Source: Rhabdaerophilum calidifontis (GTDB lineage Bacteria; Pseudomonadota; Alphaproteobacteria; Rhizobiales; Beijerinckiaceae). Taken from it: a stretch of 64,000 bases of DNA. Positions within the stretch are counted from its first letter, which is position 1. Each line of letters starts with the position of its first letter. This document shows, in pieces, positions 5,145 through 15,235 of the stretch. A program made the translations under genes and the position numbers. The stretch is from positions 1 to 64,000 of the forward strand of contig NZ_VTRS01000010.1 of assembly GCF_008641065.1 (NCBI RefSeq), read 5' to 3'. The notes beneath the pieces were generated by a model. It saw only the letters and a list, made by a program, of their open reading frames with translations. It ran no database searches and was not told the DNA's origin.

Positions 5145-5804
5145 TCAGCCCGGCAGGTCGAGGCGGGCGGCCGCGATCACCGCCTGCGTGCGGCTCTCGA
5201 CGCCGAGCTTGGCGAGGATCGCCGAGACATGCGCCTTCACCGTCGCCTCGGAAACCGAGAGTTCATAGGCGATCTGTTTGTTGAGAAGCCCCTCGGAGAG
5301 CATGGTCAGCACCCGCATCTGCTGCGGGGTGAGGCTTGCGAGACGGCGGATGAGGTCGGCCGTTTCCTTGTCGCCCTCGGCGAGGGGGATATCCGGCGGC
5401 GTCCAGGTGTCGCCGGCGAGCACGTGCCGGATGGCGCGGTTGATCGTCTCGATCGGCGTCGTCTTGGGGATGTAGCCGGCCGCGCCGAATTCCATGCAGG
5501 TGCGGATGGTCGCGGCATCGTCGATCCCGGAGACGATCACCACGGGCACGGAAGGGTGCTGCGCGCGCAGATAGGTAAGGCCGGAGAATCCGTTGACGCC
5601 GGGCATCTTGAGATCGAGCAGCACGAGATCGACCTCCGGTGCGCCGCCGAGCGCGGTCGTCACCTCGTCGAGCGTGCCGGCCTCGATCACGGTCAGCGGA
5701 TCGAAGATCCCGCCGATCGCCTGCCGGAGCGCGCCGCGGAACAGCGGATGATCGTCGGCGACGATGATGATGCCCGGCCCGTTCGCCGTCTTGGTCTCGC
5801 CCAT
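5145..5804 (-). CDS. NarL/FixJ-type response regulator, CrbR/ErdR-like
   Basis: A two-domain response regulator. The receiver domain (about residues 10-130) has the acidic pair in ADDHPLFR, the phospho-acceptor Asp64 in LLDLKMPG, and a conserved lysine in GYIPKTTP. The C-terminal LuxR-type helix-turn-helix (about 150-215) includes LTPQQMRVLTMLSEG and SVSEATVKAHVSAIL. From memory, the overall sequence closely resembles CrbR/ErdR regulators, which with the SSS-type kinase CrbS/MxtR control acetyl-CoA synthetase and acetate use in gammaproteobacteria. No kinase is adjacent, but a matching SSS-type hybrid kinase lies at 30315-33884. It is divergent from a degenerate SSS-like membrane protein, with 193 bases between. 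Confidence 0.85.
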   Translation of the reverse strand: MGETKTANGPGIIIVADDHPLFRGALRQAIGGIFDPLTVIEAGTLDEVTTALGGAPEVDLVLLDLKMPGVNGFSGLTYLRAQHPSVPVVIVSGIDDAATIRTCMEFGAAGYIPKTTPIETINRAIRHVLAGDTWTPPDIPLAEGDKETADLIRRLASLTPQQMRVLTMLSEGLLNKQIAYELSVSEATVKAHVSAILAKLGVESRTQAVIAAARLDLPG

Positions 5805-5997: not shown

Positions 5998-7545
5998 ATG
6001 ATCGGCGGGCTGGTTCTGGCGCTCTCGCTGGCCGGGTTCGGCCTGCTGGTGCTCGGCGAGCGCATGGGGCTCGGCGCGGGGCTCGCCTCCGCCGCCATGC
6101 TCGCGCAATTCCTCGTCGCGGGGCTGGCACTGGCACTGGCGAGCATGACGAGCCGGCTGCATCGCTACCTCGTCGGGGCGCCGCGCGGGGCGATCCCCGG
6201 CTTCGCGGCGCTGGTTGCGGTGACGCTCGTCGCCGGCTTCGTGCTGGTGGAGGGCGGGCCTGATCCGCGACCGGGAGCCTATGGCGCGCTGATCCTGGGC
6301 TTCGTGGCAGCGCCGCTCGTCGCCCCCTTCAATCCCTGGCGCGATCTCGGGCGTTTCGCGACCGACGAGCGGGCCTTGCGCCTGCGCGACCGTGATCCGG
6401 GCGAGGGGACGCGCGGCGCGCTTGCGATCGCCGCGCTCGCGGCCGTCCTGGCCTTGATCCTGATCCTCGCCGCCGGCCTGCCGGTGATCCTCGGCCGGCT
6501 CGAGGCGGCGACGGATTGGCCGCGCACGCGGCTCTGGCTGTTCGCGGCGGTGTTTGCCGCCGCCATCCCCCTGCTGGGCGGGATCGGCGGGCTGCGCCGC
6601 GCGGCCCTGTTCCTGATCGTGATCGCGCTTCTCGCCGCGCTGCTGCCGCTCGGCATCCAGGCGCTGCGCGATCTCGCGCCGGATGCGGATGGCATGGCCT
6701 GGCTCGGCCGGATGACGGGCGCGATCCCTGACCGGACCCGGATCGCCGCCTTCCTGCCCTCGGCACCGCGCGAAGGGGTTCCGCTCGCGATCGGCTTTGT
6801 CCTCGGCCTCGCGCTCCAGCAGGCGGCGGCGCCGCTGGCCGGAGCGGCGGCGCGCCTTCGGGGCCTGGCGCTCGGGCTTGCGCTGGCGCTCGGCCTGGCA
6901 TTCGCGGCGGCTGCGGCGCGCGATGCGCTCGAAACCCTGATCTCGACGCGCCTTGCGGGCGTTCCGGTCGGGCAATGGCCGCTCTTCGTCTTCGACGACG
7001 CCGTTCGCGGCTGGATCACCACCTGCGGCCTTGCGCCGGAGGATGCGCTTGCGGCGGCGCGCGCTTGCGGGCGCGCGGGGCTGCGCGACATCCTGCCGCC
7101 GGGCGCGATCCGCCTCGCGCCCGGTCTCGCCGCGCCAGCGCTGGCGCTGTCGGGCGGCTATCCGGCGACACTGGGCTTCATCTGGGGCATCCTGCCGCCG
7201 CTGATCGCGCTGAGCGGGCTCGGCATGCTGGTCCTTGCCGCGGCGAGCGGCTTCTCGGAGCGTGTGCTGTTCCGCCTCGCGCATCCGCGCGCGCTGCGCG
7301 GCTTCCGGCTCGCCATGGCCCGGCTCAGCCTGCTCGTGCTGGGGACGCTGCTTTACACCCTTGAGGCGCGCGGCGTTGCAGTCGAACCCGGCTTCGCGCG
7401 CTGGGCGCTGCTCGGGCTGGCGCTGACCATTCTTGCGGCGATGGCTGGTTATCGGCTGATCGCGGCGGCGCGTCTCATCCGCCGTCGTCGCGCGCCGGAA
7501 CCGTCCGCCGCGACGGAGGCGGCGCCGCACCCAGGCGTTCCCTGA
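5998..7545 (+). CDS. polytopic membrane protein, possibly a degenerate sodium/solute symporter (SSS) relative
   Basis: A 515-residue protein with about a dozen hydrophobic segments, clearly an inner-membrane protein. No standard motif is conserved. The order of features parallels SSS transporters: an early HRYLVGAPRGAIPGFAAL segment where SSS proteins have Y-x-V-A-G-R and an N-G-x-A helix; then VAPFNPWRDLGRFATDERALRLR where they have a short loop before the DF-x-x-x-RY motif; then LLGGIGGLRRAALF where they have GG-x-R. The critical sodium-site residues cannot be recognised. The gene is divergent from a CrbR-like regulator, whose relatives control ActP-type acetate symporters, and this fits the idea. 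Its 3' end overlaps the convergent ligase gene by 71 bases. The SSS link is inference. Confidence 0.55.
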   Translation: MIGGLVLALSLAGFGLLVLGERMGLGAGLASAAMLAQFLVAGLALALASMTSRLHRYLVGAPRGAIPGFAALVAVTLVAGFVLVEGGPDPRPGAYGALILGFVAAPLVAPFNPWRDLGRFATDERALRLRDRDPGEGTRGALAIAALAAVLALILILAAGLPVILGRLEAATDWPRTRLWLFAAVFAAAIPLLGGIGGLRRAALFLIVIALLAALLPLGIQALRDLAPDADGMAWLGRMTGAIPDRTRIAAFLPSAPREGVPLAIGFVLGLALQQAAAPLAGAAARLRGLALGLALALGLAFAAAAARDALETLISTRLAGVPVGQWPLFVFDDAVRGWITTCGLAPEDALAAARACGRAGLRDILPPGAIRLAPGLAAPALALSGGYPATLGFIWGILPPLIALSGLGMLVLAAASGFSERVLFRLAHPRALRGFRLAMARLSLLVLGTLLYTLEARGVAVEPGFARWALLGLALTILAAMAGYRLIAAARLIRRRRAPEPSAATEAAPHPGVP

Positions 7546-9106
7546 GCGTCTCGATCCGGTCGGCCTCGGCGGCGGGCTTGTCCCAGCGGATGCGGTGGAT
7601 GCGCGGGAAGCGCATCGCGATGCCGCTGCGATGCCGTGTCGAGACCTGCAAGCCCTCATAGGCGATTTCCAGCACGAGCCCGCCCCCGGCGCCATGCGCC
7701 ACCTCCCGGACCGGGCCGAAGCGGTTGATCGTGTTGCGCCGCACGAACTGGTCAAGTTCGGCGAGTTCGGCATCGGTGAAGCCGAAATAGGCCTTGCCGA
7801 CCGGCACCAGCCGCTCCCCATCCCAGACGCCGAAGGTGAAATCCGAGTAGAATGAGGAGCGCTTGCCATGCCCGCGCTGGGCATACATCAGCACGCAATC
7901 GACGAGATCCGGCGCGCGCTTCCACTTGAACCACGGCCCCCAGGGCCGGCCGGCGAGATAGGGGCTGTCGCGGCGCTTGAGCATCACCCCCTCGATCGCG
8001 GGATCTGCGGCCGAGTCCGCGCGCCGCGCGGCGAGTTCGGGCCAATCCGCGAAGGGAATGAGCGGCGAGAGCCGGAGGCGTGCCGTGCCGGCCGCCGTCA
8101 CGAGCGCTTCGAGCCGGGCGCGGCGCGCGAGGAGGGGCAGGGCGCGCAGATCCTCGCCGCCCGCAAACAGGAGATCATAGGCGATGAGATGGGCGGGAAA
8201 CGCGGCGAGAAGCCGCGCCCCGACCTGCTTGCGGTTGAGGCGCTGCTGCACCGCGGAGAAGGGCGCCACCGTTTCGTCATGGATGACGACCAGCTCGCCG
8301 TCGATCACACCGTCGAACCCGAGCCCGGCGGCGAGATCGGGGAAGGCGGCGGTGATCTCGTCACCGGAGCGCGAGAACAGCCGGGTCTCCCCCGGCCGCG
8401 CCGCCGCCTGGACGCGGATCCCGTCCCATTTCCATTCGGCGATGAAATCCGCCGGGTCGAGCGCGGCGAGTTCGGCCTCGTCGAGCGGATGGGCGAGCAT
8501 GGGCGCGCGGAAGGTGAGCGCGTCCGCCGCATCCGGGCGCGGGCCGCGCCCCTCCAGCCAGGCGAACAGCGCGGGATAGGGGGGCGCGATTGCGTGCCAG
8601 ACCTCCTCGACCTCCGCCGCGGCGACGCCGCCCAGAGCCGCCACTGCCTGCCGAGCGAGCGCCGCCGAGACGCCGATCCGCAAGCCGCCCGTCATCAGCT
8701 TGAGCAGTGCCCAGCGCCCCTGCTCGTCGAGCGCGTCGAGCCAGGCTGCGATCCGGGCCGGCAAGGCGGCGCGATGCGTTTCGCCCAGCGCCGCGACGAT
8801 CGCGCCGAGCCGCCCGGTTTCCGCTTCGGCCGGCTGGGCCGGCCACATCAGCGCGATCGTTTCCGAGAGATCGCCGACATAATCATAGGCGAGCGCGAAC
8901 AGCACCGGATCGGCGCGCTCGGCGATCAGCGCCTTGAGCAGCGCCGGCTTGGCGGCGGGAAAATCGAGCGCGCCGCACAGCGCCGCCAGCGCATAGCCGC
9001 GGTCCGGGTCGGGCGTCGCACGGAAATAATCGGTCATGAGCGCGAGCTTGGCGTTCCGGCGCGGTTCGAAGGCGAGACGGTCGATCAATTCGGCGAAGGC
9101 CCTCAT
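7475..9106 (-). CDS. ATP-dependent DNA ligase of the ligase-associated (cisplatin damage response) repair system
   Basis: A stand-alone ATP-dependent DNA ligase that seals nicks using a lysyl-AMP intermediate. The nucleotidyl-transferase motif I is EWKWDGIR, with the predicted adenylated lysine at residue 226. Further motifs are DGELVV and GVMLKRRDSPY, followed by an OB-fold region containing WFKWKRAPD. An N-terminal helical ligase domain occupies about the first 200 residues. The length of about 543 residues matches the family that travels with an MBL exonuclease, DEXH helicase and PdeM. ATG 9106 overlaps the exonuclease stop by four bases, so translation is probably coupled. The 3' end overlaps the convergent membrane-protein gene by 71 bases. 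Confidence 0.93.
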   Translation of the reverse strand: MRAFAELIDRLAFEPRRNAKLALMTDYFRATPDPDRGYALAALCGALDFPAAKPALLKALIAERADPVLFALAYDYVGDLSETIALMWPAQPAEAETGRLGAIVAALGETHRAALPARIAAWLDALDEQGRWALLKLMTGGLRIGVSAALARQAVAALGGVAAAEVEEVWHAIAPPYPALFAWLEGRGPRPDAADALTFRAPMLAHPLDEAELAALDPADFIAEWKWDGIRVQAAARPGETRLFSRSGDEITAAFPDLAAGLGFDGVIDGELVVIHDETVAPFSAVQQRLNRKQVGARLLAAFPAHLIAYDLLFAGGEDLRALPLLARRARLEALVTAAGTARLRLSPLIPFADWPELAARRADSAADPAIEGVMLKRRDSPYLAGRPWGPWFKWKRAPDLVDCVLMYAQRGHGKRSSFYSDFTFGVWDGERLVPVGKAYFGFTDAELAELDQFVRRNTINRFGPVREVAHGAGGGLVLEIAYEGLQVSTRHRSGIAMRFPRIHRIRWDKPAAEADRIETLRERLGAAPPPSRRTVPARDDGG

Positions 9107-10125
9107 GCCGCGCCTCCCGCATCCTCGTCGCCATAGCCGACGAGCCGCAGCGGCCGCGCCGCCCACCCGCCCGCCTGGCACCAATGGACGAGCGCGTCCT
9201 CCTGGCCATGCGTTACCCAGATCTGGCCGGCGCCGGTCTGCGGCAGCGTCGCGGTGAGATCGGGCCAATCGGCGTGGTCGGAGATGACAAGCGGCAATTC
9301 GGCGCCGTTCTGCCGTGCCCGGGCCTTGATGCGCATCCAGCCGCTCGCGACCGCCGTGACCGGGTCGGGGAAACGGCGCGACCAGAGATCGGCGAGGCTC
9401 GCGGGCGGGCAGAGAACCAGCGCGCCGGCGAGATCGGCCCTGGCCGCGCCGGTCGCCGGACGGAGATCGCCGAGCGGGATGCCGCGCTCGGTGTAATAGC
9501 GCGTGACCTTCTCCAGCGCGCCGTGGAGATGGATCGGCGCGTCGTAGCCGGCATCGCGGATCAACCGGATGACGCGCTGCGCCTTGCCGAGCGAATAGGC
9601 GCCGACGAGATGCGCTCGCTCCGGGAAGCGGCGCAGCGAGGCAAGGAGCTTGGCGATCTCCGCGGCCGGGTCGGGATGGCGGAAGACCGGCAGGCCGAAG
9701 GTCGCCTCGGTGACGAAGACATCGCAGGAAATCGGCGCGAAGGCGGGCGTGGTCGGGTCTGCCTGGCGCTTGTAATCGCCCGAGACGACGATGCGGCAGC
9801 CGCGCCATTCGAGCAGGATCTGCGCCGATCCGAGCACATGACCGGCCGGCTCGAACCGGATCGCGACCCCGCCCTCCACGATCGTTTCGCCGTAAGGGGC
9901 GATCTGGCGCGTGCCGCAGAAATCCGCACCGAGGCGGATCGCCATGATGTCGAGCGTCTCGCGGGTCGCCAGCACCGCGCCATGGCCGGGGCGGGCATGG
10001 TCGGAATGGGCATGCGTCACCAGCGCGCGCCCGACAGGTTGCAGCGGATCGATGAAGAAATTCCCCGGCGGGCAATAGAGCCCCTCGGGCCGCGGATGGA
10101 GCAGGTCTTCTGGCCGGACGGACAT
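9103..10125 (-). CDS. ligase-associated DNA damage response exonuclease (MBL/beta-CASP fold)
   Basis: A metallo-beta-lactamase-fold nuclease of about 340 residues related to SNM1/CPSF73-type enzymes, predicted to trim DNA ends before ligation. The metal-binding HAHSDH motif is at residues 38-43, and further ligands are GHVLGSAQ, SGDYKRQ and the late SDHADW. It corresponds to the exonuclease of the known ligase-associated repair cluster. ATG 10125 has AAGAGG just upstream, and the family normally begins close to this point, so the longer upstream frame is rejected. It forms an operon with the ligase and is divergent from the methyltransferase and helicase arm. Confidence 0.9.
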   Translation of the reverse strand: MSVRPEDLLHPRPEGLYCPPGNFFIDPLQPVGRALVTHAHSDHARPGHGAVLATRETLDIMAIRLGADFCGTRQIAPYGETIVEGGVAIRFEPAGHVLGSAQILLEWRGCRIVVSGDYKRQADPTTPAFAPISCDVFVTEATFGLPVFRHPDPAAEIAKLLASLRRFPERAHLVGAYSLGKAQRVIRLIRDAGYDAPIHLHGALEKVTRYYTERGIPLGDLRPATGAARADLAGALVLCPPASLADLWSRRFPDPVTAVASGWMRIKARARQNGAELPLVISDHADWPDLTATLPQTGAGQIWVTHGQEDALVHWCQAGGWAARPLRLVGYGDEDAGGAA

Positions 10126-10219
10126 GCCTCTTGCTTGGCTCTCGCTAGTCTCCCGCCCTTCACATAGGCGCCGGCGCGGCATACGGAAGGTCGGCTCCGA
10201 GCAAGCGCGCAGGATTGTC

Positions 10220-11125
10220 GTGCCGAACGATCTCTCGACCTCCGGCGATCTCATCGCCGACCGGCGTTTCGCCTATGCCCGCGCCGCCCTCGCGGAGGGC
10301 GATGCCGGGGCGGCGCGCGACCTCTTCGCGCAGGTCCTCGAACGCGCGCCGGTCTGGCCGCCGGCGCTGCACGGGCTCGCGGAGGCGGCCTTGCTCGGCG
10401 ACGATCCCGAGGCGGCGCGGGCGGCGGCGGCGGCCTGCCTCGCCCTTGATCCATCCGACCGGCTGGGCGCCGGGCTGATCCTCGCCCGGATCGAGGGGCG
10501 CGTCGTGATGCCGGAGGCCTATGTCGCGGCGCTGTTCGACGAATACGCCCCGCGCTTCGACCGTCATCTGACCGGGATACTCGGCTATATCGCGCCCGAT
10601 CTGATCGCGGTCGCGCTGCGGGAGGAGGGGGGGCTTTCCGGAATCGGGCGCGTGCTCGATCTCGGCTGCGGCACCGGACTGATGGCGCGCGCCCTGCCGA
10701 TCCCCGGCGCCGAATGGACGGGTGTCGACCTTTCCGCCGCCATGCTGGCGAAGGCGCGCGAGACCGGGCTCTATGCCCGCCTCGAACAGGCGGAGCTTTG
10801 CTCCCATCTCGGGGGGGAAGCGGCGGAGAGCGTCGATCTCGTGCTGGCGGCGGATGTGTTCTGCTATGTCGCGGATCTCGCGCCGGTGCTGTGTGCGGCG
10901 GCAAGGGTGCTCGCGCCGGCTGGCCGGCTCGCTTTCACCATCCAGAGCCAGGCCGGCGCGGGCGCGATCCTCGGGGCGGATCAGCGCGTCCATCACGCGC
11001 CGGCGCTGGTGCGGGCGGCGGGCGCGGCCGCCGGGCTGCGGCTGCGGCGCCAGCAGCCGGTCTCGGCGCGGATGGATCGCGGCCGGCCGGTGCCCGGCAT
11101 GCTGTTCGTCTTCGGCCGGGGCTGA
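10220..11125 (+). CDS. TPR-containing SAM-dependent methyltransferase
   Basis: A predicted class I methyltransferase of about 301 residues with an N-terminal TPR-like helical region (YARAALAEGDAGAARDLFAQVLERAP). The SAM-binding motif I is VLDLGCGTGLMARAL near residue 145, followed by WTGVDLSAAML and a motif IV region VDLVLAADVF. The substrate is not known. GTG 10220 is chosen because AGGA lies five bases upstream. The gene sits inside the ligase-associated repair cluster, 39 bases or fewer before the helicase, and is probably co-transcribed with it. It is not one of the usual four genes of that cluster. Confidence 0.8.
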   Translation: MPNDLSTSGDLIADRRFAYARAALAEGDAGAARDLFAQVLERAPVWPPALHGLAEAALLGDDPEAARAAAAACLALDPSDRLGAGLILARIEGRVVMPEAYVAALFDEYAPRFDRHLTGILGYIAPDLIAVALREEGGLSGIGRVLDLGCGTGLMARALPIPGAEWTGVDLSAAMLAKARETGLYARLEQAELCSHLGGEAAESVDLVLAADVFCYVADLAPVLCAAARVLAPAGRLAFTIQSQAGAGAILGADQRVHHAPALVRAAGAAAGLRLRRQQPVSARMDRGRPVPGMLFVFGRG

Positions 11126-11164
11126 GCCTTGCCGGCCGGCGGCCCGGGCGCCACCTTGGCGGCG

Positions 11165-13711
11165 ATGCCGCCCGCCGATTCCAGCCCCGAAGCGCCCGAC
11201 GATCCTTGCGCCCTGCCGCCGGCCTTCGCGCGCTGGTTCGCGCAGCGCGGCTGGATCCTCCGCCCGCATCAGGCGGAGATGCTGGCGCAGGCCGCGGCGC
11301 GGCGATCCACGCTCCTGATCGCCCCGACCGGCGCCGGCAAGACGCTGGCCGGCTTCCTGCCCGCCCTTGTCGAACTGGCCGCCCGCCCGCCGCGCGCCGC
11401 GCCGCGCGGCGTGCACAGCCTCTATATCTCGCCGCTCAAGGCGCTTGCGGTCGATATCGCCCGCAATCTCGAGGCGCCGATTGCGGAGATGGGGCTCGAT
11501 ATCCGCGTCGAGGCGCGCACGGGCGATACGCCCGCCGCCCGCCGCCAGCGGCAGCTCCGCCAGCCGCCGGACATCCTGCTGACCACGCCGGAGCAGATCG
11601 CGCTGCTGCTCTCTCACGGGGAGGCGCGGCGCTTCTTCTCGGAACTGCGCCTGATCATCGTCGATGAACTGCACGCGCTGGCGCCGGGCAAGCGCGGCGA
11701 TCTCCTCGCACTCGGCCTTGCCCGGCTCGCGGTTCTCGCGCCAGCGGCGATCCGGTTCGGGCTGTCGGCGACGGTCGCGGAGCCGGACGCGCTGCGCCGC
11801 TGGCTGGTGCCGCAGGAGCCGCCCGGCGCCATGGCGGATCTCGTGACGGTACCGCGCGAGCTGGCCGCCGCCCCGGACCTGCGGATTCTGGAAACGGCGG
11901 CGCGACTGCCCTGGTCCGGCCATTCGGCGCGCCACGCGATGGGCGAGGTCTACGAGGCGATCGGCCGGCACCGGCTCAGCCTGATCTTCGTCAATACCCG
12001 CATGCAGGCCGAACTCGTGTTCCGGATGCTGTGGGACATCAACGAGGCCGGGTTGCGCATCGCCCTGCATCACGGTTCTCTCGATGTCGCGCAGCGCCGC
12101 AAGGTCGAGGCGGCGATGGCGGCCGGCGGGCTCGATGCCGTGGTCTGCACCTCGACGCTCGATCTCGGCATCGATTGGGGCGATGTCGATCTCGTCGTCC
12201 ATATCGGGGCGCCGAAGGGGGCGAGCCGGCTGCTGCAGCGCATCGGGCGTGCGAATCACCGGCTCGACACCCCCTCGCGCGCCCTGCTTGTGCCCTCGAA
12301 CCGGTTCGAGATGCTCGAATGCCGCGCGGCGATCGAGGCCGCCGCGGCCGGCGAGCAGGATGCCCGGACGGCGCGCACCGGCGCGCTCGATGTGCTCGCC
12401 CAGCACGTCACGGGCATGGCCTGCGCGGAGCCTTTCGCGCCGGATGCGCTGTTCCGCGAGGTGACGGCGGCGGCGCCGTATTGCGGCCTCCCGCGCGCCG
12501 ATTTCGACCGTATCCTCGCCTTCGCCACCGATGGCGGCTATGCGCTGCGCGTCTACGAGCGGTTCGCGAAGCTGAAGCGCGATGCCGGGGGGCGTTACCG
12601 GATCGCCAATCCGCGCCTCGCGCAGGGCTACCGGATGAATGTCGGCACCATCGTCGAGGAGACGATGCTCAAGGTCCATCTCGGCGCCGGACGCGGCGGA
12701 GCCCTGCGTCCCGGCAGGCTGCTCGGCGAGATCGAGGAATATTTCGCCGAGGGGCTCAGCCCGGGCGATACCTTCGTCTTCGCCGGCGAGGTGCTGAAAT
12801 TCGAGGGGCTCGTCGAGGATCGCGTCATCGCAAGCCGCGCCGCCGGGCGCGATCCGATGATCCCCTCCTATGCGGGCGGCAAGTTCCCGCTTTCGACGCA
12901 TCTTGCGGCGCGCGTGCGCGCGCTGATCGCCGATCCCGCGCATTGGCGGTGCCTGCCGGCGCAGGTCGCGGATTGGTTGCGGCTCCAGCAGGCGAGATCC
13001 GGGCTTCCGGGGCGGGACGATCTCCTGATCGAGAGCTTCCCGCGCGCCGGCCGGCATTTTCTGGTGCTCTATCCGTTCGAGGGCCGGCTCGCGCATCAGA
13101 CGCTCGGCATGCTGCTGACGCGGCGGCTCGAACGCGCCGGGCTGAAGCCGCTCGGTTTCGTCGCCAATGATTACGCGCTTGCAACCTGGATGCTCGGCGA
13201 CCCGCAGCGCTGTGTCGCGCGCGAGCCCGGCTTTCTCGGCGCGCTGCTCGACCCCGACATGCTTGGCGACGATCTCGAGGCCTGGCTCGCCGAGAGCGCC
13301 CTGATGAAGCGCTCCTTCCGCCATTGCGCGATCGTCTCCGGGCTGATCGAGCGCCGATTTCCCGGCATGGAGAAGAAGGCGCGGGCGCTGACCCTCTCCA
13401 CCGATCTGATTCATGACGTGCTGCGCCGCCATGAGCCGGATCACATCCTGCTGGCGGCCGCGCGGGCGGATGCGGCGTCCGGCCTCATGGATCTGCGCCG
13501 CCTCTCGGACTTCCTGATGCGGATCCGCGGGCGAATCGCGCATCATCCGCTGGCGCGGATATCGCCGCTCGCGGTGCCGGTGATGCTCGAGATCGGGCGC
13601 GAACCGGTCTATGGCGAAGCGGGCGACGCGGCGATCGCGGAGGAAGCGGAGCGGCTGATGCAGGAAGCGGCGGACGAGCCCGGGCCGGCAGATGGCGGGG
13701 CGGAGGCGTGA
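11165..13711 (+). CDS. ligase-associated DNA damage response DEXH-box helicase (Lhr-type)
   Basis: A superfamily 2 helicase of about 848 residues of the large-helicase-related type, predicted to unwind damaged DNA for the associated exonuclease and ligase. Walker A is APTGAGKT near residues 54-61. The DELH Walker B box (IIVDELHALAPGKRGD) is near residue 165. Motif III-like LSATVAEP and the helicase C domain motifs FVNTRMQAELVF and LLQRIGRANHR are all visible. The C-terminal Lhr-type winged-helix and DEAD-assoc region follows. ATG 11165 is used; a TTG at 11129, three bases after the methyltransferase stop, would add 12 residues. PdeM begins two bases after its stop. Confidence 0.93.
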   Translation: MPPADSSPEAPDDPCALPPAFARWFAQRGWILRPHQAEMLAQAAARRSTLLIAPTGAGKTLAGFLPALVELAARPPRAAPRGVHSLYISPLKALAVDIARNLEAPIAEMGLDIRVEARTGDTPAARRQRQLRQPPDILLTTPEQIALLLSHGEARRFFSELRLIIVDELHALAPGKRGDLLALGLARLAVLAPAAIRFGLSATVAEPDALRRWLVPQEPPGAMADLVTVPRELAAAPDLRILETAARLPWSGHSARHAMGEVYEAIGRHRLSLIFVNTRMQAELVFRMLWDINEAGLRIALHHGSLDVAQRRKVEAAMAAGGLDAVVCTSTLDLGIDWGDVDLVVHIGAPKGASRLLQRIGRANHRLDTPSRALLVPSNRFEMLECRAAIEAAAAGEQDARTARTGALDVLAQHVTGMACAEPFAPDALFREVTAAAPYCGLPRADFDRILAFATDGGYALRVYERFAKLKRDAGGRYRIANPRLAQGYRMNVGTIVEETMLKVHLGAGRGGALRPGRLLGEIEEYFAEGLSPGDTFVFAGEVLKFEGLVEDRVIASRAAGRDPMIPSYAGGKFPLSTHLAARVRALIADPAHWRCLPAQVADWLRLQQARSGLPGRDDLLIESFPRAGRHFLVLYPFEGRLAHQTLGMLLTRRLERAGLKPLGFVANDYALATWMLGDPQRCVAREPGFLGALLDPDMLGDDLEAWLAESALMKRSFRHCAIVSGLIERRFPGMEKKARALTLSTDLIHDVLRRHEPDHILLAAARADAASGLMDLRRLSDFLMRIRGRIAHHPLARISPLAVPVMLEIGREPVYGEAGDAAIAEEAERLMQEAADEPGPADGGAEA

Positions 13712-13713
13712 GC

Positions 13714-14433
13714 ATGCCCGCCATCACCGCCGTTGTGCCCGTCTCTTCGTCCCTGGCCGGTGCGGTGCCCGTCCGGCTCGGCGGTCTCGATCTGATCCTG
13801 CATCCCGAGGGCGCGGCGCTGGTGCCGGCGGAGGAGACGCTGATCGTCGCCGATCTCCATCTCGAGAAGGCGGCGAGCTTCGCCGCGCGCGGCCGGCTGC
13901 TGCCGCCGCATGATTCGGTGGCGACGCTCGGCGCGCTCTCCGCTCTTGCCGGGGCGCTGGCGCCGCGGCGGATCGTGCTGCTCGGCGACAGCTTCCATTC
14001 GCGGCTTCACACCTTCGGCGCCGCGTCGCCGGGGCCGGCGCTGATCGCCGGGCTCGCGGCGCGGGCGGAACTGGTCTGGATCGCGGGAAACCATGATCCC
14101 GTGCCGCCGCTTCCGCTGCCCGGCCGGGCGCTGCCGGAACTGCGGATCGGCGATGTGGTGCTGCGGCATCTGCCCTGCCGCGACGGAAGGCCCGAGATCG
14201 TCGGCCATCTCCACCCGGCCGCGCGGCTGCGCACGCGCGCGGGCGCGCTGCGCCGGCGCTGCTTCCTGCTCTCGCCGGCGCGGCTCGTCCTGCCGGCCTT
14301 CGGCGCGCTGACCGGGGCGCTCGATGCCGATGACCCGGCGATCGCGGATTGGTTTCCGGATCGGGCGGGGCATGCCTTCCTGCTTGGGCGCGCCGGGTTG
14401 AGCCGCGTTCCGCTCGCCGCGGTGATGGGCTGA
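13714..14433 (+). CDS. pdeM: ligase-associated DNA damage response endonuclease PdeM
   Basis: A calcineurin-like metallophosphoesterase of about 239 residues that completes the four-gene ligase-associated repair system. Metal-binding motifs are VADLHLEKAASFAARG, LLGDSFHSR and IAGNHDP, with a late histidine pair in VGHLHPAA. ATG 13714 is preferred to GTG 13708, because GGAGG at 13702-13706 is seven bases from the ATG but only one from the GTG. It directly follows the helicase gene and is convergent with TIGR02186. Confidence 0.88.
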   Translation: MPAITAVVPVSSSLAGAVPVRLGGLDLILHPEGAALVPAEETLIVADLHLEKAASFAARGRLLPPHDSVATLGALSALAGALAPRRIVLLGDSFHSRLHTFGAASPGPALIAGLAARAELVWIAGNHDPVPPLPLPGRALPELRIGDVVLRHLPCRDGRPEIVGHLHPAARLRTRAGALRRRCFLLSPARLVLPAFGALTGALDADDPAIADWFPDRAGHAFLLGRAGLSRVPLAAVMG

Positions 14434-14437
14434 GGCG

Positions 14438-15235
14438 TCAGTCGCGCCGGAAGGCGATATTGGCGATCCAGCCGAGCAGGATCGCCATCGCCACCGAGAA
14501 CAGCGCATAGGCCCAGGCCTCGTTGCGCGCGGCATTGGCGACGAAAGCGTCGAAACCGACCTTGCGCACCACGAAGCCGGCCTGCGCGGTCTTCAGCGGC
14601 ACCCCCTCGGACAGCACTGAGATGTTGACGAGATAGAGCCCGGTCGGCGCCTTTGCGGGCAACTGGATCGTCGCGGTGAAGAGATTGGGGCGGATCATGG
14701 TCACGGCGCGCTCGTTCTGCGTCACCGCGCCCTCCTCGCGGCGCAGCCGCAGCAGCGCGTTGCGGAAGCCGAACTCGCTGCCGCCTTGCGCATCCGACAC
14801 GCGCGCCGCGTCGGGAAGGAAGTATTCGAGCCCGAGCTTCAGCCGCTCGCGCACCGCCTCGTCGGTGATCTCGTGCAGCGGCCGCGCCGTGAGCAGCGAG
14901 AAGAACAGCGGAATGCGCATGTAGCGGCGACGCTGATCCGTGAGCCAGATCGGCCCGAACCTGCCCTTGCGATGCACGACGACATCGCCCTGCGGCCCCT
15001 GGACATTGGCGACGACATCGTAATTGCCGGAGCGGGCGATGGTGCGCGCATCGCGCTCGATGAGCCCGAATACGGTGATCTCGGCGCCGGTATAGGTGGA
15101 GGTGATCGCGACCTCGCGCGTCGAGAGCGCGAGCACCAGCTCCTCGGCGCGCCCCGCGCCGGGCAGCAGCGCCGCGAGCAGGGCCGCGAGGAGCAGGCCC
15201 TGGTGCCGCAGGCGACGGCTCGCCCGCCGGCTCAT
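14438..15235 (-). CDS. TIGR02186 family (Alph_Pro_TM) membrane-anchored periplasmic protein
   Basis: A 265-residue protein with an N-terminal signal (LLLAALLAALLPGAGRAEEL), a periplasmic domain containing GAEITVFGLIE and RRRYMRIPLFF, and one C-terminal membrane helix (YALFSVAMAILLGWIANIAF). This layout matches the alphaproteobacterial TIGR02186/Alph_Pro_TM family, whose function is not established. Its start overlaps the stop of the TauE/SafE permease gene by four bases, so the two are translated together and probably act together in transport or handling of a sulfonate-like anion. Confidence 0.85.
   Translation of the reverse strand: MSRRASRRLRHQGLLLAALLAALLPGAGRAEELVLALSTREVAITSTYTGAEITVFGLIERDARTIARSGNYDVVANVQGPQGDVVVHRKGRFGPIWLTDQRRRYMRIPLFFSLLTARPLHEITDEAVRERLKLGLEYFLPDAARVSDAQGGSEFGFRNALLRLRREEGAVTQNERAVTMIRPNLFTATIQLPAKAPTGLYLVNISVLSEGVPLKTAQAGFVVRKVGFDAFVANAARNEAWAYALFSVAMAILLGWIANIAFRRD

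Follow-up and report, generated by a model that had tools for sequence, protein, structure and literature searches.

In a 64,000-nucleotide stretch of Rhabdaerophilum calidifontis DNA (assembly GCF_008641065.1, contig NZ_VTRS01000010.1, positions 1 to 64,000; hereafter the window), a gene for a TPR-type class I S-adenosylmethionine (SAM)-dependent methyltransferase sits between the two diverging arms of a ligase-associated DNA repair cluster. It is likely that this methyltransferase is an independent enzyme, flanked by the arms of the repair cluster and kept beside them in an old gene order. The methyltransferase probably does not form a fifth core part of the repair system, because it is a frequent neighbour of the repair genes in one order, the Hyphomicrobiales, yet is also present without them. 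By its protein sequences the locus itself reads as an ordinary Hyphomicrobiales repair cluster of four genes (Lhr helicase, exonuclease, ligase and PdeM), of a kind already published. A sequence-only reading of the same DNA had proposed that the methyltransferase might be a fifth component, perhaps modifying a repair protein or a damage product.

The five genes span 7475–14433 of the window and are given here with the intergenic region and the gene that adjoins them:

7475..9106, minus strand: cisplatin damage response ATP-dependent DNA ligase (TIGR04120; ATG start)
9103..10125, minus strand: ligase-associated exonuclease of the metallo-beta-lactamase/beta-CASP type (TIGR04122)
10126..10219, no strand: divergent intergenic region of exactly 94 bases, in which both promoters are presumed to lie
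10220..11125, plus strand: TPR-type class I SAM-dependent methyltransferase (GTG start; PF08241)
11129..13711, plus strand: ligase-associated DEXH helicase, Lhr-Core type (TIGR04121, WH_Lhr, DEAD_assoc)
13708..14433, plus strand: ligase-associated endonuclease PdeM/MPE (TIGR04123)
14438-15235, minus strand: Alph_Pro_TM membrane-protein gene adjoining PdeM

Linkage and loss in Hyphomicrobiales and beyond

Natural deletions within the genus separate the methyltransferase from its neighbours. The methyltransferase is present in all 17 genus genomes; the helicase scores above its cut-off in 13 of the 17 and adjoins the methyltransferase directly in all 13. The exonuclease is present in 11 genomes, and the same 11 have a ligase match (10 above cut-off; in G010 the contig ends within the ligase). 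In 10 of these 11 the exonuclease adjoins the methyltransferase; the remaining one is G007, whose methyltransferase is at the end of a contig. Helicase, exonuclease and ligase were all not found in G003, G009, G014 and G016 (completeness 98–100), PdeM not having been searched for genome-wide, and in these four genomes the methyltransferase is intact, with no stop in frame. Their copies are among 63 aligned sequences that share the invariant residues described below. In G009, G014 and G016 the methyltransferase stands directly between the membrane-protein gene and the Alph_Pro_TM gene that elsewhere form the flanks of the island, and at the G003 locus only the membrane-protein gene of the two was found. 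Natural half-systems also occur: G001 and G006 (L137, L149) have the helicase and lack this system's exonuclease and ligase.

In a tree of 86 methyltransferase rows (a gene tree, not a species tree), copies that lack repair genes occupy two or more distinct positions, which tentatively suggests at least two independent losses. The tree excluded the short, broken or distant loci L064, L065, L068, L069, L159, L160, L163 and L165, the duplicates L032, L033, L034 and L062, and some short loci. End branches of the copies without repair genes measure 0.26–0.40, against 0.24–0.50 for linked copies of the same clade. Loss is a simpler account than repeated gain, because the full order of ligase, exonuclease, methyltransferase, helicase, PdeM and Alph_Pro_TM gene is also found in L046, L049 and L130, which belong to other groups of Hyphomicrobiales. 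Given that the methyltransferase has been kept intact, on branches that are not longer, where helicase, exonuclease and ligase are missing, it must have a task that it performs even without those three genes.

The linkage itself was surveyed in a sample of 219 Hyphomicrobiales genomes, in each of which the 10 best methyltransferase candidates were scored and a match was called full-length if it began no later than residue 9. Counts rest on HMMER or tblastn places and not on the home-made gene caller, contig ends hide some neighbours, and hand-picked context loci were kept out of the rates. Full-length matches numbered 54, in 53 of the 219 genomes, and 36 of the 54 are no more than 5 kb from the helicase or the exonuclease (both, 15; helicase only, 11; exonuclease only, 10; neither, 18). 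The sequence-only reading had named a location mainly away from repair genes in relatives as the outcome that would count against it, and within the order the reverse was observed. Full-length matches come from 12 families, 9 of which include linked copies, and the exonuclease is divergent to the methyltransferase in all 25 exonuclease-linked rows. The place of the helicase is unlisted for G144, G195, G217 and G237, so that helicase distances cover 49 of the 53 genomes; these four were judged by the exonuclease alone, and G144, with neither place listed, was counted as unlinked. Another 27 genomes have only partial or later-starting matches, and none of the 37 such matches is linked to either gene within 5 kb (in G087, G155, G195 and G233 the helicase place is unlisted and the exonuclease is on another contig). 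The methyltransferase is unlinked throughout families f20 (7 of 7 rows) and f6 (5 of 5 rows), and of the 172 genomes in the order that carry the helicase, 53 have a full-length copy and 119 lack one.

As a control for gene-order inertia, the places of pyrD and of the Alph_Pro_TM gene were determined in these 53 genomes, again with 5 kb as the limit for linkage. The methyltransferase lies within this distance of the helicase in 26 of 49 genomes (9 of 12 families) and of the exonuclease in 25 of 42, while the helicase lies as close to the Alph_Pro_TM gene in 21 of 41 (10 of 11 families). For the methyltransferase with pyrD and with the Alph_Pro_TM gene the counts are 7 of 53 and 8 of 43. Inertia therefore explains much of the linkage, since the Alph_Pro_TM gene, for which no repair role is known, accompanies the helicase about as frequently as the methyltransferase does.

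Several observations weigh against an independent methyltransferase that has simply stayed in place. Of the 42 order genomes in which a full-length methyltransferase and an exonuclease were both matched, 21, the window's genome among them, have the two as a divergent pair whose matched stretches are less than 300 bases apart. This is more than chance, and the pair is tighter than simple inertia suggests. In 15 of the 36 linked loci neither pyrD nor the Alph_Pro_TM gene is found within 10 kb, and the repair genes therefore stayed there while other neighbours did not, although 8 of those 15 genomes have no Alph_Pro_TM match anywhere, which weakens the case for an accessory role that could be built on them. 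The helicase is present in all 53 genomes with a full-length copy and in 119 of the 166 others, a comparison not corrected for ancestry. Finally, in a sample of the class outside the order (8 best candidates scored per genome), 47 genomes have a methyltransferase match, 23 of these have the helicase, and in none do the two lie within 5 kb (about 15 kb apart in G243 and G378), but most of the 47 matches are partial, with only that of G504 starting at residue 9 or earlier, and the class survey is for this reason a weak test of true orthologues.

More complete copies from outside the order, so placed by title or tree position, are found at 19 loci (L041–L045, L048, L050, L052–L061, L063 and L066) where the match runs from residue 12 or earlier to residue 295 or later; within up to 8 kb on each side these loci have no exonuclease, ligase, helicase or PdeM match. 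At 15 Rhodospirillales-type loci (L041–L045, L048, L050, L052–L058 and L061; methyltransferase at about 8001–8880 in most), which form one clade of the gene tree, the methyltransferase is divergent to an agmatine-deiminase-type gene that is followed by an N-carbamoylputrescine amidase gene. The deiminase scores 261.5 against a curated cut-off of 381.8, below it, and the amidase 447.8 against 410.25, above it. An agmatinase-family gene lies near the methyltransferase in L047, L059 and L063, and two agmatinases that were scanned score 194.8 and 177.2, above the cut-off of 174.3. On the other side of the methyltransferase, most of the 15 Rhodospirillales-type loci carry a gene for an RlmI-like RNA methyltransferase. 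A gene to which the scan assigned no family, and which we take to be RlmJ-like, is the next one downstream of the methyltransferase at 4 loci of family f20 (L106–L109) and stands within 3.5 kb of it in two genomes outside the order (L158 and L159). Such varied neighbourhoods are in keeping with an enzyme that has different neighbours in different lineages, and they offer leads to its substrate.

Anatomy of the locus and the predicted methyltransferase

What the sequence-only reading had described at the locus itself holds. The arms diverge across exactly 94 bases, and the four repair proteins are as it had named them, all above their NCBIfam cut-offs: the ligase at 790.5 bits against TIGR04120 (cut-off 400), the exonuclease at 460.9 against TIGR04122 (325), the helicase at 1077.7 against TIGR04121 (850) and PdeM at 184.7 against TIGR04123 (150). 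The ligase sequence carries KWDG, which we take to be the nucleotidyl-transfer motif, and the exonuclease HAHSDH, presumably the metal motif. Spacing is tight, as had been noted: in the minus arm the ligase start ATG and the exonuclease stop overlap by 4 bases, in the plus arm helicase and PdeM overlap by 4 bases, and methyltransferase and helicase are separated by 3 or 39 bases, depending on whether the helicase starts at the TTG at 11129 or, as is possible, at an ATG at 11165. The methyltransferase is indeed outside the four standard genes and inside the cluster.

The methyltransferase is confidently predicted to fold as a class I SAM-methyltransferase, with a helical cap at the N-terminus. 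It matches PF08241 at 63.2 bits (cut-off 21.2) and carries the SAM-binding domain with the motif DLGCGTG. Its designation as a TPR-methyltransferase stands firmly for the catalytic half; the TPR half is suggested by models just under their Pfam cut-offs (TPR_19, 22.1 against 25; TPR_14, 21.8 against 23.5) and by the AlphaFold2 model, built from 37 sequences with a mean pLDDT (the per-residue confidence score) of 96.3, in which five helices of TPR-like length (11-25, 29-42, 47-59, 63-76 and 84-92) form a repeat-like cap followed by a long linking helix and the catalytic domain. No Pfam domains other than SAM-methyltransferase and TPR models were matched. Full-length orthologues share an N-terminal motif, SG[DN]xxADRR, in the alignment, and the residues identical in all 63 aligned sequences include DLGCG (147–151), Y123, P126, Y185, D212, Y216, R256, H259 and R284.

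The substrate is likely a small molecule or a protein, judging from the predicted fold. The nearest solved folds are tied among phosphatidylethanolamine N-methyltransferase, ChlM, the protein N-terminal methyltransferases NTMT1/NRMT1 and ScNTM1, and UbiG (Z about 20–22; root-mean-square deviation 2.4–3.3 over 184–206 residues; 12–26% identity), in alignments that compare the overall fold and are confined to the catalytic part, most of them starting near residue 90. None of the 38 solved-structure matches covers the helical cap, all of them starting at residue 99 or later. A named substrate was sought and set aside: the 22 NCBIfam families matched include no equivalog above its cut-off (the best reaches 45.9 against 155; BioC, 45.5 against 342; UbiG, 39.1 against 102.95), and the tied fold neighbours do not pick one. 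An anti-phage defence role was likewise rejected; PADLOC gave the methyltransferase one match over its SAM domain (mad2, 44.6 bits, residues 103–243), the helicase matches to 61 families and the other three proteins none.

The promoter scan of the 94-base gap gave no sigma-70-like site, and no exact LexA-type GTTC-N7-GTTC repeat is present there. SOS control via LexA was rejected, since no locus scanned has an exact GTTC-N7-GTTC or GAAC-N7-GAAC repeat upstream of the methyltransferase, one-mismatch sites being scattered only. A CTTCACATAG block at 10158–10167, a possible promoter element, is also present between exonuclease and methyltransferase in 5 (L146 and L153–L156) of 9 exonuclease-linked relatives from the genus that were compared by eye.

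Around the island, a convergent membrane-protein gene at 5998–7545 overlaps the ligase gene by 71 bases at their 3' ends (7475–7545). A MATE-family transporter gene, matched by the DinF model below its cut-off, lies near the island in loci of several families, namely L037, L115, L116, L122–L124, L128, L130 and L131. The Rfam scan of the window for RNA elements returned two tRNAs, and ARAGORN placed a third, doubtful tRNA at 5369–5463.

Alternative explanations for the arrangement

On the account that we favour, the ancestor of many Hyphomicrobiales would have had a ligase–exonuclease arm diverging from a methyltransferase–helicase–PdeM arm, and this order would have been maintained by gene-order inertia, perhaps aided by a shared divergent promoter region. 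The substrate of the methyltransferase would be a small molecule or a protein, methylated in a reaction needed with or without the repair pathway, in which, as the published families suggest, the helicase may unwind damaged DNA, PdeM and the exonuclease trim it, and the ligase seal it.

It is possible, if doubtful, that the two arms are instead co-regulated without shared biochemistry, so that a common divergent promoter region gives both the same stress response while the methyltransferase serves some other stress-related reaction. The uniformly divergent orientation of the 25 exonuclease-linked rows, the short gap and the recurrence of the CTTCACATAG block are all consistent with this, but no promoter was called in the window, exact LexA-type repeats are lacking upstream of the methyltransferase both there and at every locus scanned, and the exonuclease arm has been lost while the methyltransferase remains. 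A closer functional tie is unlikely: in it the methyltransferase would serve the repair pathway of Hyphomicrobiales as an accessory member, with its cap recruiting a partner and the enzyme methylating a repair or chromosome-associated protein under damage. There is reason to consider such a role in the linkage across 9 of 12 families, in the close divergent pair and in the 15 linked loci with neither pyrD nor the Alph_Pro_TM gene nearby. Among these are G127, G157, G230 and G024, where exonuclease and methyltransferase lie together and the helicase is about 97 kb or more away; in L121 and L133, where this was fetched, the ligase adjoins the pair; and the protein N-terminal methyltransferases NTMT1/ScNTM1 are among the fold neighbours, at Z of about 21, tied with small-molecule enzymes. 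Against it stand the intact gene in the 4 of 17 genus genomes that have no helicase, exonuclease or ligase, the 119 helicase-bearing genomes without a full-length copy, the unlinked copies of f20 and f6, and the absence of any helicase within 5 kb among the 47 genomes outside the order, a point weakened by the mostly partial matches. Apart from the f20 and f6 copies, these observations, together with the 19 more complete loci outside the order that have no repair-gene match and the similar positional persistence of the Alph_Pro_TM control gene, also tell against the fifth component that had been proposed, leaving that reading with partial support. A fuller version, in which the Lhr-Exo-Lig-PdeM pathway of Hyphomicrobiales acquired an accessory protein methyltransferase that shares the exonuclease's divergent promoter region, tunes the pathway and is sustained by a second target after repair-gene loss, seems to us quite improbable.

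Two other proposals concern the substrate directly. Membership in agmatine or polyamine metabolism would account for the 15 deiminase/amidase loci and for the agmatinase-family genes of L047, L059 and L063, which bring two enzyme families that share one substrate close to the methyltransferase. However, this is a post hoc pick among many neighbours, the 15 loci are a single clade, and no such gene occurs in the repair-linked loci, and we judge the proposal very unlikely. Methylation of DNA or of a damaged nucleotide, the second suggestion of the sequence-only reading in that it named a damage product, is extremely unlikely. Position beside repair genes and the mad2 match over the SAM domain speak for it; against it, the folds ranked highest belong to methyltransferases of small molecules and proteins, and no Pfam domain accompanies the SAM-methyltransferase and TPR models. 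The sequence [DNS]PP[YFWH] is motif IV of DNA amino-methyltransferases, and it is missing from all 63 aligned sequences.

If the methyltransferase did belong to the pathway, a modifying enzyme would be tied to a widespread repair system. As found, the locus is mainly a lesson in the reading of gene neighbourhoods, in that a tight and recurrent arrangement is separable by natural deletions, and the conserved, uncharacterised enzyme family at its centre deserves a substrate screen by itself.

Relation to known systems

The Lhr-Core/Exo/Lig/MPE gene cluster of bacterial repair (TIGR04120–TIGR04123) was reportedly set out by Ejaz and Shuman in 2018. The island resembles it in that all four proteins are present, with genes that are adjacent and overlap within each arm and that are contiguous except for one inserted gene; it differs in being split into two divergent arms, with the methyltransferase heading the helicase arm. 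The consulted excerpt of one paper describes the Lhr-Core/Exo/Lig/MPE operon and calls the damage targeted by this widespread repair system unknown (PMC10140301), and that of another gives MPE as adjoining bacterial lhr in 276 of 319 genomes (PMC8301817). Among the titles and abstract openings of the literature matches listed, none treats the methyltransferase together with the cluster, and none reports a characterised member of the predicted TPR-containing methyltransferases.

That last group is, we presume, what COG4976 denotes. The enzyme described here is like COG4976-type TPR-methyltransferases in having N-terminal helices of TPR length followed by a Methyltransf_11/25-type domain, and unlike that description in the SG[DN]xxADRR motif at the N-terminus of its full-length orthologues. 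In the fold of its catalytic part it is like NTMT1/ScNTM1, phosphatidylethanolamine N-methyltransferase, ChlM and UbiG, a likeness of fold that by itself does not reveal the substrate and that places the enzyme beside protein and small-molecule methyltransferases alike.

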